Below, piece by piece: positions 1-6,557 of a stretch of 64,000 bases of DNA. Position 1 is the first letter of the stretch. The number at the start of each line of letters is the position of its first letter. A model generated the notes under the pieces. That model ran no database searches. It had not been told where the DNA came from and saw nothing but the letters and a program-made list of their open reading frames with translations. The translations under genes were made by a program, and so were the position numbers. The DNA is from Symbiodinium sp. CCMP2592 (taxonomy: Eukaryota; Sar; Dinophyceae; Suessiales; Symbiodiniaceae). Location: assembly GCA_905221615.1 (NCBI GenBank), contig CAJNDT010000003.1, positions 1,199,967-1,263,966 of the forward strand, read 5' to 3'.

Positions 1-3000
1 GTTGATGGCAGTAACTGCCATCTGGATGTCGTTTCTCCCCACGGAGTGCTCATCGACGAGTTTTCTCCAAATCGCCTTCCAGGACTGAATTGCACGCTCC
101 ACTGCTCCTTGCTGAAAATGTGCCTGTCCCGCCGCGGGACGAAGCTTCGTCCCGTGCCACTCGGAAAACCTGCCGAGACCGGCTTGCAAACCCGATTCCA
201 GATCCAAGGCAAGCGTACCTGGTGCCCCGAAAGTGTTTGACCAAATAGTGCAGAAGTCACGCTCCATAGACTGGGTCGAATGCCCTGTGAGGGGCCCAAC
301 CAATGAAAACCCGGTACCGAGATCGGTCACCATCATGAACTCACACCGGCGCCTGGCAAAGTCGTAGGTAGAGAAGGCGTCGACGGCGACAATCTGGTTG
401 AAGTCGAGGAGGTTGGGGAGAGAGGCCGGCCTAGCCGAACTCGCCCTCTTGCTTCTCGCACACACTTGGCACTGTAGACGTTTTGTGGCTTCCACGACCT
501 CGCTTCCAGCGCCAGCAACTCTCAGATGGCGCGCCAAGTCCTCGTTGGAGGGGTGTCCCAAATTCTGGTGGAGGCGCTTGAGGGCAGACTGGACTTCCTT
601 CTTGATGGGAGTCCCTTTCGAGAAAGAAATTGCTTGAGCTCCTCCGCCGCCTCGGTCCAGTACCGGTTCCTCACCACGACCTGGCCTAGAATCGACAACG
701 TAGGCTTGTTGATCTTCATCGGTCTGGCCTTCACGTTGTAGTAGATAACGTCGTAACTGGTCGCAGGGTTCGTCGTGGTCCCCCACATCCTCAAACTCGC
801 TCGGATTGAGGTGAAGAAGCCATGTGTCCGGGGGTCCGCGTTCCCATCGGTAGTCGTACAAGTCGAGGAAGACCCCAATGGAGTCGGAAGACCAGCATTC
901 ATCTCCAAGTCCTCCTTCAAGCACCGCGCCCCGCCCAGTGGCGAGTTGTCTCTGAACGACACTCAAGACCCGTTCAAGGCCACCCCTCAGCTCAGCGAGG
1001 TGAATCCAGAGCCGAGAGGGCTGGAGCTCGTCGATCACGGCGGTCGCTGTGGATAATCCTTGAACTCCAAGAAAGTCTTCAGCTACCAGGGGCTCTGCGG
1101 TCAAATAGCCGTAGTCGTGGGCCTCGAAAGTTTTGTTCGTTCCCCCGATCTCGAGAAGGGTGACTCCTTCCGAATCATGTCCCGGAGGGAATGTAGGAGA
1201 GACGAAAGTGGACGTCACCATGGCACACCAGGCAGTCAGCGTCACCAGCCGCTGTGCATTCTTCCACAAGGACTTCCTCGTGCTCTTGATGGGCCTGGTG
1301 GTCCTCGCGTAGATCTCGTCCTTCTGCTTGAGAACATGTGAGAGACCTCGGAGAGGAAAACGGAGTTCTCTTAGGCCATCGCGCAATCGAGCATCGGTGT
1401 CGGGGAAGGCTCTCCCGGTGAAGCACGACACGCACCATCGTTCACCAGTCCACGGCTCTGTAGAGTGTCTCCTTTTCGGATCGAGGACATACGGGTGGTT
1501 CTTGGTAGACACGAGGTAGCCCGGAAGGGGATCACCATCAGGACCAGGGCGCCATTCAACTGGGAGATGCAGAGGGTCGTCGCTGCAGTCCCTCTCGACC
1601 CAGACACTGCCTTCGGAGAATTCTCCCAGGGTCACCGTGAAAACGGAGGTTCCAAAGAGGTTGTGGGCGTCGCGGTGGATTGTAGTAGCAATGTCCTTTG
1701 TGACGATGAACGACGACCATCCGAGGTCTCTCCCCTTTGTCTCCCTCTTCATGACCTCGTTGACGTAGGAGACGAACTTCGGGAATCGTACTGAGTCGCG
1801 AGACACCCCGTGTAGGCCTCCGTGGTTCCACATCCCACCGAGAAAACTTTGAGACTCTAGTCCCACTTCGCCGTTGATGCTGCGATGCTTCTTCGAGGTC
1901 TTAGGAGGTATCAGAGGTAGTAGATCACGTAGGACTTCCAGAGAGAATCGCTTTTCTTTGAGAGCGGCAGCAGCAGCTTCCTCGAGCTGTCGTCCTGAGC
2001 TGTCAACTGGAACCCGACTGCCTGTGGACTCATCTTGTAGGTAGACCTCCTCGACGACTTGGTCGAATGCCACGTGAGAACAAGGATCACCAACGTAAAG
2101 ACAGCCATCTCGGAGACTAGGGGGTCCACTGCCAGACCATCCGGTAGCATTACCGCTGCTAGAAGCTTGAAGATCACGGCCAGGTAGTCCTTCAGGATTG
2201 CGATGACATTCTGGAGCTAAGGGATCACGACCAGGTAGTCCATCAGGATTGCGATGACATTCTGGAGCTAAGAGATCACGACCAGGTAGTCCATCAGGAT
2301 TGCGAGGACATTCTGGAGCTAAGGGCTCGTGACCGGGTAGTCCCACGGGATCGCAATGACATTCAGAGGTCGAAGCTTCATTCCTCGTGCGATCAAGCCA
2401 AAGCTGAGGATCGCGGTCATTGGGCTGAACAGAAAACGAATTAGGGTTGCATTCGCCAAAATGGCCTTCAGGCCGATCTCCGTCGGCCTGGGTCAAAACT
2501 TTGCTGCTCCCACAGTGCTGGTCCCTGCCAGCCTCATAGTTCCCGCCACCGTGCTTGCCAAGGTTCGCATTGGGAGCGAAATCATCACAGTCATAGAAGA
2601 CCTCGGCATCGGTGTAGGCGGCGGTCTCGAACTCGCAGTTCAGGGCAGGTTCCCGGACGGCGGGATCCCGTGGCGGTCCTGGAGGACTGCCAGTCTCGCC
2701 TGGAGGTACTGGACCTCGTCCATGACTTCCGGGTCCACTTCCTGCTCCATGCGGCTCGTCGAAGATGGTGCCACTGAAGATGGTCCCCGCCTCTGCGCGG
2801 GCACTCTGGTTGTCTCCGCCTCCGCTGGGACCTTGGTGGGCCTGGCCTTCGCCTTGGACTTGACCTTGTAGTCGTTCGTCTCGCCCGTCGGCACCAGGTC
2901 CCAGGAACTCCCTCCGAAGGATTCCGGGTGGTAGGGTACCTTCGCGCTCTCCTCGGAGTCCGGAAAGGGAGTCGGGGTCGACGAAGCCATGTAGCCGTCC

Positions 3001-6000
3001 GTCACCTCGAGGGCCTTGGCCGCCCATGTCGCATACATCCTCAGATCCTCTTGGGCCCCGTTGTTCCCCGCGACTTCTCGCACTGCCCATCGTCGATACG
3101 AGATCGGGGTCTCCTGGTACATCTGACCACGAAACCTTCCGAAGGAGAGGACGGTCTGAGGGCCCAGACCTCCTTGGTCGCGGAGGAGCCTCATGAGAAC
3201 TCCCTTGTTGGCCTTCTCCGGCACCGCCATACCCGAGGCCTCCAGGGCATTCTCCAAGTCCTTCACAGTCATCTTGGTCAGGGGGGTCGCCTCGAACGGG
3301 GTCCCGGATGATGCCGCCGAGCTCTTCTTCATGTCCTCCTGAATGATGCTCCTCAGTTCGGGCACCGTCCACTTCGGGTGAGTCATCAGCCCGCGTGCGT
3401 TCGCCTCCGCGATCAACTCCTCGCGGCGTAGTTCCCATAGCCCTTTCTTCTTGGTCACCACGGGAGCCGTCAGAAGCTGGGCACTGGAGGCCATGAGGTT
3501 GGAGCGAAGCCGCACACGGGAGGGGCCTGCAGGCTCTACTGAAAGAAGTTCTGCCGATCCACAAAAGCGGGAATGACGATTTGCTTCCGAGCTCTCTCCA
3601 CTGATCATGTACTTCAGGAAACGCACGCTGAGTACTGCAAGCATACCCCTGAGACGACCTCACCGAACCCAGAGCCTCGAGAAGAGCAGACTTCTGATCG
3701 CCCTTTGAAGTGGTCCAACCGCGGGGATCAAAGAAGGTTCGCCTAGGGACAACATGAATACGGTGCAGCTGAAACTCATCCTCTATCCAGAAGTCGTTGG
3801 AGATCGATGTTTGGGACCACCACGCCATGAAACTTGTTGGATTCATCTTATCTGAAGTAAGAAGGTTGGAGGCTTCAATGCTGATCTTCTTCGGATAGAA
3901 CACCTTGGGGCTTGTAGTTACCTGAGGACTTTCTGCACTGTTGACCGACAGACCAGGGAGAAGAGGAGGGGCTTCGACACGACATGCGCTCTCATCATCA
4001 TCTGAAGACTCACAGCTATGCACTGTCATGAACGCCGTGTATTGCTGGGACTTCGGAACAATCAGCAGCTCGCGGTCCTGCCAATCGCAGCTCTTGATGG
4101 CCGCGGCGCTAACAGTCAACGGCTGTACGGGGAGGGCCGGATGGCCCGTGTCCGTCGACAAAAGACTGAGATCCTGGACACCGAGGTTGCGAAAAGAAGC
4201 TTTGTTGGCCGCTACATCCATGATCATTCCAAGCTGCCCCAAGGCTGGCCTCGAAATCAAGAGAGGGACGTCCCCGTTCACCACTGCCACACGAAGCAAG
4301 ATAGAGTGGCCTCCCACTCCAAAGCTCAACACGACAGCGTAGGAGGAATCAAAGATGCGGCTTGCCCCAAACTTAAAAGCATCCTTGCACATCACCGTCT
4401 CAGGCACAAAACCGATCTTCCGGGCTTCGACCATGTACTTCTCGATCCATGGCACCCCCGCCACGCTCCTCGAGCAGGCCGTGTCGGTGATCGCGGTCAG
4501 ATTGGCGGTGGCAACCTTCTGGTCCAGATCCCAGGTCACATAGACATAGTGGCAAGCATAGCTGGTCTTCGGCACGTCGTCCTTGTTGGCATTCGGAGGT
4601 GACGACTTCGGACCCTTAGAGATAGCACCGTTCCCGCCTCCCTGATTCAAAGGACATTCAGGGTCTTTGTGCCAATGCCCCCTCCTTCGGCACCCTGAGC
4701 AGAACGACTTGTTCTTTGCCTGCTGGAGGCGATCAGCAGCGAGTTGGCGCATGCCCTCCGGGTCCGCTCCTCGAAGTTTGCTAAGCTCCTTGTACTTCTG
4801 TTTTGCGGATTCGTGAGTCATAAAGGCCTCGAAGAGTTCCTCAGCCACATGCTCTGGTACACACTCGGACTGGTCGTCCGTCGGGAAGAGGTCGCCGGGG
4901 TCGTCCTCGTCAGGATGGCCATCATCAGCCATATTCGCCTGTTGAGGGCGGCGAGAGCTCCACCATTTGCTTCCCCGATCCTGGCGTTGAGAGCTGTTGT
5001 TCGGCTCCCAAGGCTTGCGCAAGCTCCTGTCCTGCACTATTGCCGCCTGCTGCAGACGCTTCAAAGAGTACTCGTTCTGGACGGACGCCAGGAGGTTCAG
5101 CTCTTGCTCCTCGGACAGGGCCATCCTGTCCACAAACACCCAAGCAGCAGCAATATCAGGTAAGTGGCACCCGCATTCTTGCAACCTCGCCAACGCCCGA
5201 TCGTAGTCGCTCATGTAGTCGCGGACAGACTGGCCTTGTTGTCGGCGGAGTCGGCGGAAGAAGTCGCCGAGGGATCTGCCGATCTGCGTCACCTGAACAT
5301 CCAAGTATCTGTCCGTAACCCAACTCAGGTAGTACTCCATTCCATCTTCGCCGGCGAGCTTGTCAACATCGAGACGCTCCGCATCAATCCAAGCCTTGCC
5401 CGACAAGTGTTGATAAAGAGTCAAGGCCTGCCTCGAAGAGTCGATCCTCGTCATGCGGCGCCAAGCCGCAATCTGCCTCAAGTAGGACCTCGCACTGGCC
5501 CCGATGTCCTCGGTCCCCGCTTCCAGGGTCCCGGCGAAGGAAGGGACCACCATCTTCTCGGACGGCCCCCTGGCACTCTCTCCGGTCTTGGGAGCAGAGG
5601 TCAGGTCGCAGCCAAGTTTCTGAGGCTGCCATCCGCCAGGCATAGCAGCACCACCACGCGTCCTCCAGGCCTCGGCGCCTTGTTCTTGATGATCGTAGTC
5701 TCGCGAGGGGCTCTCATGCACAGAGCCGGTCCCGGTCGAGGTGGACCCCCAGGTCCCCCCGTAGCTCTGGCGCCGATCATGCCAGACACGCTCGTGGTTC
5801 TGCCACCGAGTGTCCCAAGGTTCACCTCGAGAATCCCAGTGGGCGTAGCTTCCCCACTCGGAGTGTCCCCACCAGGCGGCAGCCTGGTCTCCACTCCGTC
5901 CCTTGGACCAAGGATCGTCCCTGGTCCAGTCGTCGTCTCTTTCGCCTGCCCCATGAACATCATGAGAGACAGGGCCATCTCCTGCGTCGCCGCGATCAGC

Positions 6001-6108
6001 AGCTACGCCATCACTATGTTGCTGCGGCGAATCGTCACTAGGTCCGGGAGGAACATCGCCCGAAGAAACCCAAGTAGAACCGTAGAAGGAAGTTCGGACA
6101 TCCGACAT
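1..6108 (-). CDS. Copia polyprotein (Gag-protease-2OG-like-integrase), C-terminus off window
   Basis: The start is ATG at 6108 (MSDVRTSFYGS), chosen because in-frame stops lie just upstream and a PBS-like site precedes it. The frame has no stop down to position 1 (2036 codons). Residues about 183-375 are the Gag core (W, LYQHLSGKAW, LLASVQNEY). Residues 470-485 are a zinc knuckle, C-x2-C-x4-H-x6-C. The protease active site DTACS is near residue 542. A beta-helix dioxygenase-like domain lies at 1680-1438. Integrase: zinc-binding H570/H555 with C471/C462, and catalytic D381, D204 and E99 (34 residues between the last two). Between about 3600 and 2650 this open frame encodes only unconserved sequence; the expected SAP-like segment is in another frame. 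It acts in reverse-transcription particles and in DNA integration (family knowledge). Confidence 0.85.
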   Translation of the reverse strand, partial: MSDVRTSFYGSTWVSSGDVPPGPSDDSPQQHSDGVAADRGDAGDGPVSHDVHGAGERDDDWTRDDPWSKGRSGDQAAAWWGHSEWGSYAHWDSRGEPWDTRWQNHERVWHDRRQSYGGTWGSTSTGTGSVHESPSRDYDHQEQGAEAWRTRGGAAMPGGWQPQKLGCDLTSAPKTGESARGPSEKMVVPSFAGTLEAGTEDIGASARSYLRQIAAWRRMTRIDSSRQALTLYQHLSGKAWIDAERLDVDKLAGEDGMEYYLSWVTDRYLDVQVTQIGRSLGDFFRRLRRQQGQSVRDYMSDYDRALARLQECGCHLPDIAAAWVFVDRMALSEEQELNLLASVQNEYSLKRLQQAAIVQDRSLRKPWEPNNSSQRQDRGSKWWSSRRPQQANMADDGHPDEDDPGDLFPTDDQSECVPEHVAEELFEAFMTHESAKQKYKELSKLRGADPEGMRQLAADRLQQAKNKSFCSGCRRRGHWHKDPECPLNQGGGNGAISKGPKSSPPNANKDDVPKTSYACHYVYVTWDLDQKVATANLTAITDTACSRSVAGVPWIEKYMVEARKIGFVPETVMCKDAFKFGASRIFDSSYAVVLSFGVGGHSILLRVAVVNGDVPLLISRPALGQLGMIMDVAANKASFRNLGVQDLSLLSTDTGHPALPVQPLTVSAAAIKSCDWQDRELLIVPKSQQYTAFMTVHSCESSDDDESACRVEAPPLLPGLSVNSAESPQVTTSPKVFYPKKISIEASNLLTSDKMNPTSFMAWWSQTSISNDFWIEDEFQLHRIHVVPRRTFFDPRGWTTSKGDQKSALLEALGSVRSSQGYACSTQRAFPEVHDQWRELGSKSSFPLLWIGRTSFSRACRPLPCAASLQPHGLQCPASDGSRGDQEERAMGTTPRGVDRGGERTRADDSPEVDGARTEEHHSGGHEEELGGIIRDPVRGDPPDQDDCEGLGECPGGLGYGGAGEGQQGSSHEAPPRPRRSGPSDRPLLRKVSWSDVPGDPDLVSTMGSARSRGEQRGPRGSEDVCDMGGQGPRGDGRLHGFVDPDSLSGLRGEREGTLPPGILRREFLGPGADGRDERLQGQVQGEGQAHQGPSGGGDNQSARAEAGTIFSGTIFDEPHGAGSGPGSHGRGPVPPGETGSPPGPPRDPAVREPALNCEFETAAYTDAEVFYDCDDFAPNANLGKHGGGNYEAGRDQHCGSSKVLTQADGDRPEGHFGECNPNSFSVQPNDRDPQLWLDRTRNEASTSECHCDPVGLPGHEPLAPECPRNPDGLPGRDLLAPECHRNPDGLPGRDPLAPECHRNPEGLPGRDLQASSSGNATGWSGSGPPSLRDGCLYVGDPCSHVAFDQVVEEVYLQDESTGSRVPVDSSGRQLEEAAAAALKEKRFSLEVLRDLLPLIPPKTSKKHRSINGEVGLESQSFLGGMWNHGGLHGVSRDSVRFPKFVSYVNEVMKRETKGRDLGWSSFIVTKDIATTIHRDAHNLFGTSVFTVTLGEFSEGSVWVERDCSDDPLHLPVEWRPGPDGDPLPGYLVSTKNHPYVLDPKRRHSTEPWTGERWCVSCFTGRAFPDTDARLRDGLRELRFPLRGLSHVLKQKDEIYARTTRPIKSTRKSLWKNAQRLVTLTAWCAMVTSTFVSPTFPPGHDSEGVTLLEIGGTNKTFEAHDYGYLTAEPLVAEDFLGVQGLSTATAVIDELQPSRLWIHLAELRGGLERVLSVVQRQLATGRGAVLEGGLGDECWSSDSIGVFLDLYDYRWERGPPDTWLLHLNPSEFEDVGDHDEPCDQLRRYLLQREGQTDEDQQAYVVDSRPGRGEEPVLDRGGGGAQAISFSKGTPIKKEVQSALKRLHQNLGHPSNEDLARHLRVAGAGSEVVEATKRLQCQVCARSKRASSARPASLPNLLDFNQIVAVDAFSTYDFARRRCEFMMVTDLGTGFSLVGPLTGHSTQSMERDFCTIWSNTFGAPGTLALDLESGLQAGLGRFSEWHGTKLRPAAGQAHFQQGAVERAIQSWKAIWRKLVDEHSVGRNDIQMAVTAIN
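1438..1680 (-). other. 2OG-Fe(II) dioxygenase-like (TET/JBP-like) domain inside the polyprotein
   Basis: Reads IHRDAHNLFGTSVFTVTLGE, then SEGSVWVE, then HPYVLDPKRRHSTEPWTGER. The candidate iron ligands are H1677, D1671 and H1467, with a candidate 2-oxoglutarate-binding R1440. HRDxHN followed by G(T)S and TL closely resembles the metal-binding strand of TET/JBP nucleic-acid hydroxylases, and H-x4-W-x-G-x-R resembles the distal strand of the superfamily. Assignment is by eye; activity is unknown. Confidence 0.55.
2172..2375 (-). repeat. 51-bp tandem repeat, about 4 units, in-frame in the polyprotein
   Basis: Units start at 2172, 2223, 2274 and 2325, exactly 51 bp apart, the last one degenerate. 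On the minus strand each adds 17 residues of the form LAPECHRNPDGLPGRD. The length keeps the frame, so copy-number change would not break the polyprotein. It sits between the SAP-like segment and the dioxygenase-like domain. Confidence 0.85.
2640..3644 (-). CDS. Displaced polyprotein segment with two SAP-like motifs
   Basis: An open frame of 334 codons, offset from the frame that carries Gag-protease and integrase. It holds two helix-turn-helix SAP-like motifs (LWELRREELIAEANARG, and LTKMTVKDLENALEASG followed by NKGVLMRLL) and then FGRFRGQMYQETPISYRRWA, all typical of this place in dinoflagellate copia polyproteins. The first 40 or so residues from the formal ATG look unlike family sequence, so the true switch point is probably between 3640 and 3490, and the return between 2700 and 2640. 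Most likely two compensating indels or assembly errors; programmed frameshifting is a less likely alternative. Confidence 0.65.
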   Translation of the reverse strand: MLAVLSVRFLKYMISGESSEANRHSRFCGSAELLSVEPAGPSRVRLRSNLMASSAQLLTAPVVTKKKGLWELRREELIAEANARGLMTHPKWTVPELRSIIQEDMKKSSAASSGTPFEATPLTKMTVKDLENALEASGMAVPEKANKGVLMRLLRDQGGLGPQTVLSFGRFRGQMYQETPISYRRWAVREVAGNNGAQEDLRMYATWAAKALEVTDGYMASSTPTPFPDSEESAKVPYHPESFGGSSWDLVPTGETNDYKVKSKAKARPTKVPAEAETTRVPAQRRGPSSVAPSSTSRMEQEVDPEVMDEVQYLQARLAVLQDRHGIPPSGNLP

Positions 6109-6140
6109 TGCGCAGTAGCGAGAGGACTACTGGAGCATAA

Positions 6141-6153: not shown

Positions 6154-6330
6154 ATCTAAAACGAAGAAGCAGGGGTCCTGCCTGCAGAGACGGCGGCCGC
6201 TTTTGCCACGCTTCGAACCACTCTTGTGCCTCCGGGATAAAACTGTTCAGCTTTGCTTTGGGAAACTTCGGAGGAGATGGCAGAATCAGACAGCGGTACA
6301 CTTCACAGATTGACACCCCTTCCGTGTTGA
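6154..6330 (-). repeat. Possible 5' LTR remnant
   Basis: The DNA upstream of the PBS candidate on the minus strand is where the 5' LTR should be. Composition changes to TTTAGGG-like repeat DNA at about 6350. The partner LTR is outside the window and no clear TG...CA ends were fixed, so the limits are guesses. Confidence 0.3.
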
Positions 6331-6557
6331 GTTCCGGAGCGCATTGAAACTTAGGTGTCCAGAGAAAGCCAGTTTTGGAGAGTTTAGGGATTATGGTCGG
6401 TTTTTCAAGAGTTTGGGGATTAAGGTCCAGTTTTGAAGAGTTGAGCGATTATGGTCACCAGTGTTCTTTTTTTGACAAGCTTAGCTTTCAGGATTTTGTT
6501 TAGACACCCGGGTGGAGCGCTAAGAATTTAGGGATTGCGGTTTAGTGGGATCCGGGT
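6331..6557. other. Repeat-like spacer
   Basis: Three degenerate copies of a 40-50 bp phrase built on TTTAGGGATTATGGTC and TTTTGGAGAG lie between the retroelement and the next open frame. No gene or RNA is seen. Confidence 0.5.

Follow-up and report, generated by a model that had tools for sequence, protein, structure and literature searches.

Several fungal transposons, including Kyakuja and Zisupton, carry a gene of the TET/JBP type (PMC12730594). Here we describe a mobile element that likewise carries a TET/JBP-like domain, a copia retrotransposon of the dinoflagellate Symbiodinium sp. CCMP2592. It lies at one end of a 64,000-nucleotide stretch of contig CAJNDT010000003.1 (hereafter "the window"; C3:1199967-1263966 by whole-genome search of the 1.098-Gb assembly), and its polyprotein contains a predicted 2-oxoglutarate (2OG)-Fe(II) dioxygenase. 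Unlike this copia element, the fungal carriers are DNA transposons and some Helitrons, and that 2025 survey reports that the class was not found in retrotransposons (PMC12730594). Among long terminal repeat (LTR) retrotransposons, an orchid Ty3/gypsy element likewise encodes a 2OG dioxygenase, but this enzyme is of the AlkB type with an RxxxxxR motif, is encoded in an additional open reading frame (ORF), and belongs to a gypsy rather than a copia element of a plant (PMC9289625). For plant Copia elements, the same study describes domain gain as not seen (PMC9289625). Within Symbiodinium, SymbioLINE-Dnmt and SymbioDIRS-Dnmt3 are likewise retroelements that encode DNA base modification enzymes, but these are methyltransferases and occur in LINE and DIRS elements; that study describes Symbiodinium Copia elements without a DNMT domain, and the words TET, JBP, and dioxygenase have no occurrences in its main text (PMC5890265). 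Another study speaks of streptophytes and dinoflagellates together when it mentions DNMT3 in their Copia and DIRS elements, and also cites a 2024 PNAS paper on a dinoflagellate 5-hydroxymethyluracil (5hmU) enzyme (PMC12344493). Among the matches listed in the open-licence literature, we found no publication joining dinoflagellate retrotransposons with TET/JBP.

The domain in the window shares with the TET/JBP enzymes TET2, NgTet1, and CcTet a double-stranded beta-helix fold, the HxD..H motif, the 2OG-binding arginine, an aromatic residue six positions after this arginine (R+6), and a polar residue five positions after the first histidine (H+5). It differs from them in lying within a copia polyprotein, in scoring below the Pfam cut-off, and in having no His or Arg at R+8, and its activity is putative. 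Kinetoplastid JBP1 belongs to the same class, but the likeness described here is drawn from TET enzymes and not from the sequence or fold of JBP1. We refer to it as TET/JBP-like, without counting it among the accepted members of the class.

A conserved predicted dioxygenase domain in many copia copies

The first-pass annotation of the window had pointed to HRDAHN...GTSVFTVTL and RRHSTEPWTGER, between the protease and the integrase of a copia polyprotein, as the HxD...H...R layout of a 2OG-Fe(II) oxygenase. Both stretches are indeed found between these two domains (Table 1), with GTSVFTVTL shortly after HRDAHNLF in the translation. When the polyprotein was shuffled 2000 times, a relaxed motif of this kind (HxD..Hx[STAG]..Rx5[FYW]) arose in 506 of the shuffled sequences, and one that also had N or D at H+5 arose in 57. 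The motif by itself is thus not beyond chance, and the case for the domain rests on conservation and fold.

A first protein search returned 21 proteins, among them P0002, which is entered as the window's own protein; those with an organism name are all from Symbiodinium. In an alignment (A1) of 12 of the 22 sequences formed by the window and these 21 proteins, the H, D, H, and R residues were invariant. A larger protein set (the window and P0002-P0028) retained 23 of 28 rows at 80% domain coverage, namely the window and 22 database proteins, and here H, D, H, N, H, T, W, R, W, and R were invariant in all 23, with R+6 being Y in 15 and F in 8. By motif search of P0002-P0028, 26 of the 27 proteins contained HxDxHN and 23 contained the H.T..W.G.RW stretch; proteins missing these stretches are fragments or, in the case of P0008, have a broken end. 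At the level of the 1.1-Gb genome, there were 4284 first-look candidates for the domain, of which 150 were scored and 148 of these had no stop. From 66 of the 150 scored copies we obtained an alignment that spans 30-100% identity to the window and has 67 rows, because the window's own place is also present as L001, and 38 of these rows were picked for diversity (A4). Residues H62, D64, N67, H132, and R141 (P0001 numbering) were invariant in all 67 rows, as was the H-to-R spacing of 9. Neighbouring residues vary, with H66 being H in 61 rows and T134 being T in 53, while R+9 is Arg in 66 rows and Thr in one. Only 13 of the 159 scorable columns (rows with a letter) were invariant, and four given columns would all belong to this set with a probability of 2.8e-5, so the conservation of H, D, H, and R goes beyond chance. 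Free variation of the four residues would have spoken against the first-pass annotation, and none was seen in any of the three alignments (12/12, 23/23, and 67/67 rows); the metal-binding triad and the distal 2OG-binding arginine of the proposed layout are both in place.

The domain is under purifying selection, as the ratio of nonsynonymous to synonymous substitution rates (dN/dS) in close pairs ranged from 0.027 to 0.532 with a median of 0.089 (79 of 2211 pairs, in 9 clusters). In the protein set, 14 rows held both the domain and the integrase, and for the 11 elements left after removal of near-identical ones the domain and integrase distances were strongly correlated (r 0.90), which fits inheritance of the domain with the element. 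Per-residue conservation of the domain was higher than that of the preceding linker and lower than that of gag and integrase; in P0003, for example, 146/220 residues were conserved in the domain, 93/215 in the linker, and 159/197 in the integrase.

One subfamily, with about 32% identity to the window, has many copies that lie in open frames, the longest of which reach 3187 codons or slightly more.

Comparison with TET/JBP and AlkB enzymes

The AlphaFold model of the domain (pLDDT 78.0, pTM 0.80) has the double-stranded beta-helix fold expected from the first-pass annotation, and the solved structures that match it best are nucleic acid dioxygenases. NgTet1 ranks first by VIA-align, tied with AlkB within 1 Z, and AlkB, ALKBH, and FTO structures tie with NgTet1 in the fold matches. 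In TET enzymes, the base stacks on Tyr1902/Phe391 and its N4 is contacted by Asn1387/Asp234, with Gly at H+5 in CcTet (PMC11040006). In the 67 genomic rows, R+6 is F in 35, Y in 31, and H in one, and H+5 is Asn throughout, as expected of a TET/JBP-type stacking aromatic and an Asn/Asp base contact. Where the element has HRDAHN and RWCVSCF, the row for solved TET2 has HRDLHN and HATTPL...RISLVFY, and that for NgTet1 has HKDNLD and RIGLVYF. Pfam Tet_JBP (PF12851; gathering cut-off 34.9 bits) matched 11 of the 38 A4 copies at E <= 1 (best 1.5e-4) and one of the 12 A1 members (E 0.0026), with six window-family matches, five of them from the 38 copies, scoring 13.9-18.6 bits and thus under the cut-off. 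Nine Pfam families matched any of the 38 copies; Tet_JBP was the only one to match more than one copy, and no AlkB-type or other 2OG-oxygenase family was among them. In a search of the A4 profile against the PDB, CcTet was the sole dioxygenase listed (E 0.23), with both halves in register.

A second element provides a bridge to the TET/JBP class. Searching the whole genome with Tet_JBP (150 of 155 candidates scored) gave four places with E-values of 2.2e-4 to 3.0e-4, all under the cut-off, and the same search returned nothing in 14 control genomes. These places are near-identical repeated ORFs (L085-L088; 1283 codons in three and 1231 in one), and their domain matches A4 at up to 89.0 bits and Tet_JBP at E-values of 3.6e-6 to 4.6e-6 (three of the four scanned). 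Because the bridge ORFs match both profiles, the window family is tied to TET/JBP by two significant steps. One 1283-codon frame also has a C5-methyltransferase-like part, for which there was no Pfam match, and a reverse transcriptase (RT)-like part that matches RVT_1 at E 0.0032, below its cut-off (Table 1). The element, represented by L085-L090, is possibly DIRS-like. No further Tet_JBP match in the genome fits a host enzyme, in a search that ran exon by exon with weak matches and under which a host gene is possible.

Several results weigh against a TET/JBP assignment. The fold matches to AlkB and TET lie within 1 Z of each other, and AlkB heads the Foldseek ranking. The His or Arg that contacts the O2 of 5-methylcytosine (5mC) at R+8 (His1904 in TET2, His297 in NgTet1, and Arg393 in CcTet; PMC11040006) is absent, this position being T, S, G, P, V, or A in the 67 rows. 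No sequence among those scored reaches the Tet_JBP cut-off (best 29.6 bits, in the whole-genome search), the window part of the polyprotein itself has no Pfam match, and 27 of the 38 A4 copies have no Tet_JBP match. Profile comparison by hhalign gave a Prob of 0.3 with NgTet1 and 0.6 with AlkB, rising to 11.8 for A4 against NgTet1 and one relative (E 0.0025, one template), and the top row of the A4 search against the PDB was an unrelated hemagglutinin (E 0.039). Nevertheless, we favour TET/JBP over AlkB on the sequence evidence, namely F or Y at R+6 in 66 of 67 rows, the Tet_JBP matches, and the bridging sequence, and the likeness to TET/JBP enzymes noted in the first-pass annotation is supported to this extent.

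Proposed function and alternative explanations

We believe it probable that the copia polyprotein encodes a catalytically competent TET/JBP-related dioxygenase that would oxidize the C5-methyl group of pyrimidines in element DNA and so adjust silencing marks. The data show the presence of the domain, the class of its fold, its invariant residues, the purifying selection on it, and its inheritance together with the integrase; its activity, its substrate and the base that it would modify, the timing of its action, and its benefit to the element are what we infer here. Fe(II) would be held by H1484, D1486, and H1554, and 2OG by R1563. By comparison with TET2, NgTet1, and CcTet, F1569 would provide the stacking surface for a flipped base and N1489 a contact to it. 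The domain most likely travels with the RT and integrase. Judging from its position in the polyprotein, the enzyme could be released or remain tethered beside them and would encounter the element either as complementary DNA (cDNA), in the particle, or as an integrated copy, in the nucleus. The C5-methyl group oxidized there, in cDNA or integrated copies, may be that of 5mC or that of thymine, with 5hmU as the product of the latter, and the DNA marks by which the host recognizes and silences the element may be adjusted in this way. Oxidation of 5mC could lift silencing, and hydroxylation of thymine could give new cDNA a likeness to the DNA of the host. The Asn at H+5 could serve as either donor or acceptor of a hydrogen bond and therefore does not decide between cytosine and thymine. 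NgTet1 acts on thymine too (PMC12344493). Most of the Symbiodinium genome is CG-methylated, and its LINE and DIRS elements carry DNMTs (PMC5890265); in the related genus Breviolum, 5hmU is enriched on most repeats, most strongly on Maverick elements, with some LINEs excepted (PMC11071213).

An AlkB-type demethylase that removes N-methyl marks (N6-methyladenine, m6A, or N1-methyladenine, m1A) from element RNA or DNA would account for the tied folds and for AlkB heading the Foldseek list, and it has a precedent in the orchid gypsy element, whose AlkB ORF is an m6A demethylase active in vitro (PMC9289625). AlkB proteins have the RxxxxxR motif (PMC9289625), but none of the 67 rows has R at R+6, where F, Y, or H stands instead, and the nine Pfam families that matched the A4 copies include Tet_JBP but none of the AlkB type; we regard this explanation as unlikely. 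Protein hydroxylases occur in the same fold class, and the domain might act on a protein such as gag, or on another small substrate, rather than on nucleic acid. The 50 VIA-align rows include one 2OG-Fe(II) oxidoreductase, 6n1f, without a nucleic acid role in its title, but the remaining listed fold matches are nucleic acid enzymes, the putative base-contacting Asn and stacking aromatic are conserved, and the setting is a DNA-making polyprotein, all of which make such a substrate less likely still.

It is more improbable again that the domain is a dead fold that the polyprotein retains for structure or binding. The adjoining domain, which resembles a methyltransferase fold without a catalytic motif, could be seen as a parallel, but all of the Fe and 2OG ligands are invariant down to 30% identity, against 13 of 159 columns overall, and it is hard to see why a structural role would preserve just this set. 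The frequency of the relaxed motif in shuffled polyproteins favours a chance match in a stretch that is of low complexity or shifted in frame, but the median dN/dS, the predicted fold, and the conservation across 66 copies exclude it.

Structure of the element and other parts of the polyprotein

On the minus strand, the polyprotein runs from a gag-like region through a CCHC knuckle, an aspartic protease motif, and a long middle part to the dioxygenase, a further domain, and the integrase (Table 1). The knuckle, protease, and integrase motifs were assigned by eye from general features of such proteins (of copia integrases in the latter case), and none of the three had a Pfam match in the window part. 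Beyond the window, the polyprotein continues for 901 codons in the same frame, which contain RVT_2 (Pfam, E 4.6e-17). The element thus has the Ty1/copia arrangement, with RVT_2 after the by-eye integrase motifs in one polyprotein frame and with paired LTRs. The insertion of the window copy looks recent, because its 162-bp direct repeats are 100% identical; the LTR pairs of two other copies are 161 bp and 99.4% identical (C225) and 153 bp and 99.3% identical (C5063).

Table 1. Positions of the features discussed, in window coordinates unless a locus or contig is named.
Feature	Position	Strand	Remarks
Copia polyprotein, window part	1..6126	-	Single open frame, 2042 codons; continues outside window to C3:1197261
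Gag CCHC-type zinc knuckle CSGCRRRGHWHKDPEC	4654..4701	-	Place computed; motif by eye
Aspartic protease motif ITDTACSRSVAG	4456..4491	-	Place computed; motif by eye
TET/JBP-like 2OG-Fe(II) dioxygenase with N-terminal helical part	1264..1986	-	Polyprotein 1381-1621; A1 alignment, AlphaFold, fold matches
HRDAHN: putative Fe ligands H1484, D1486; base-contact candidate N1489	1660..1677	-	Location, 67-row alignment; N role by comparison with TET2 Asn1387
RRHSTEPWTGER: putative Fe ligand H1554, 2OG-binding R1563	1438..1473	-	Location, 67-row alignment
F1569 (R+6, putative stacking aromatic), R1572 (R+9)	1411..1422	-	Alignments
Post-dioxygenase domain, weakly S-adenosylmethionine (SAM)-methyltransferase-like (Rossmann-type)	592..1296	-	Weak fold likeness
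Integrase	1..591	-	HQNLGH (zinc motif) 553-570, CQVC 460-471; candidate D/D/E 373-390, 190-213, 88-108
Overlapping open frame, HeH/SAP-like motifs	2640..3659	-	+1 to polyprotein
5' LTR, 162-bp terminal direct repeat	6155..6316	-	Identical to C3:1197130-1197291
1283-codon frame of second element	L089:7411-9999 -> L090:3-1259		TET-like domain, C5-methyltransferase-like part with APPCGTASRARE (PPC, by eye), RT-like part

Copia elements are expected to leave short target duplications, unlike what flanks the LTRs of two of these copies. The same 79-bp sequence lies outside both LTRs of the window copy (window 6316-6394 and C3:1197051-1197129, the latter being L048 5052-5130), and the LTRs of the C225 copy (L081/L082) are flanked by a tandem array with a period of approximately 81 bp.

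No PPC or other catalytic motif was seen in the methyltransferase-like domain that follows the dioxygenase. Upstream in the polyprotein, the overlapping frame matches Pfam HeH at E 0.0033, below its cut-off, and has a Met at 3494, close to the start of several matches. We surveyed this overlap at 13 places (the window and 12 that were fetched), 10 of which have an overlapping ORF. In nine of these 10 (the window, L069, L071-L075, L079, and L080), it lies in the +1 frame of an open polyprotein frame; the window and L079 are near-identical. The other places match the window's overlapping frame at 39-99% identity, and L071 has one stop in it. At each of the nine places tested, no more than 10 of 2000 synonymous shuffles left the polyprotein frame open, so the dual coding looks selected. 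The overlapping frame thus resembles a long, conserved gene that shares its sequence with the polyprotein gene of a retrotransposon.

Possible implications for dinoflagellate base modification

If the domain is active, it would be a TET/JBP-type enzyme encoded by a retrotransposon, a class of carrier from which the fungal survey reported such enzymes absent, and the element may chemically edit its own DNA or that of its host. We consider it conceivable, if rather doubtful, that perhaps thousands of copia copies, together with the second element with its TET-like, methyltransferase-like, and RT parts, encode TET/JBP-type enzymes that write 5hmU or erase 5mC in element DNA, whether newly made or integrated, in which case much of the unusual base modification of this dinoflagellate would be transposon-encoded. 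It can be tested directly whether the element adds or removes possible silencing marks of the host, and how large a share of the modified base in the host comes from transposons.
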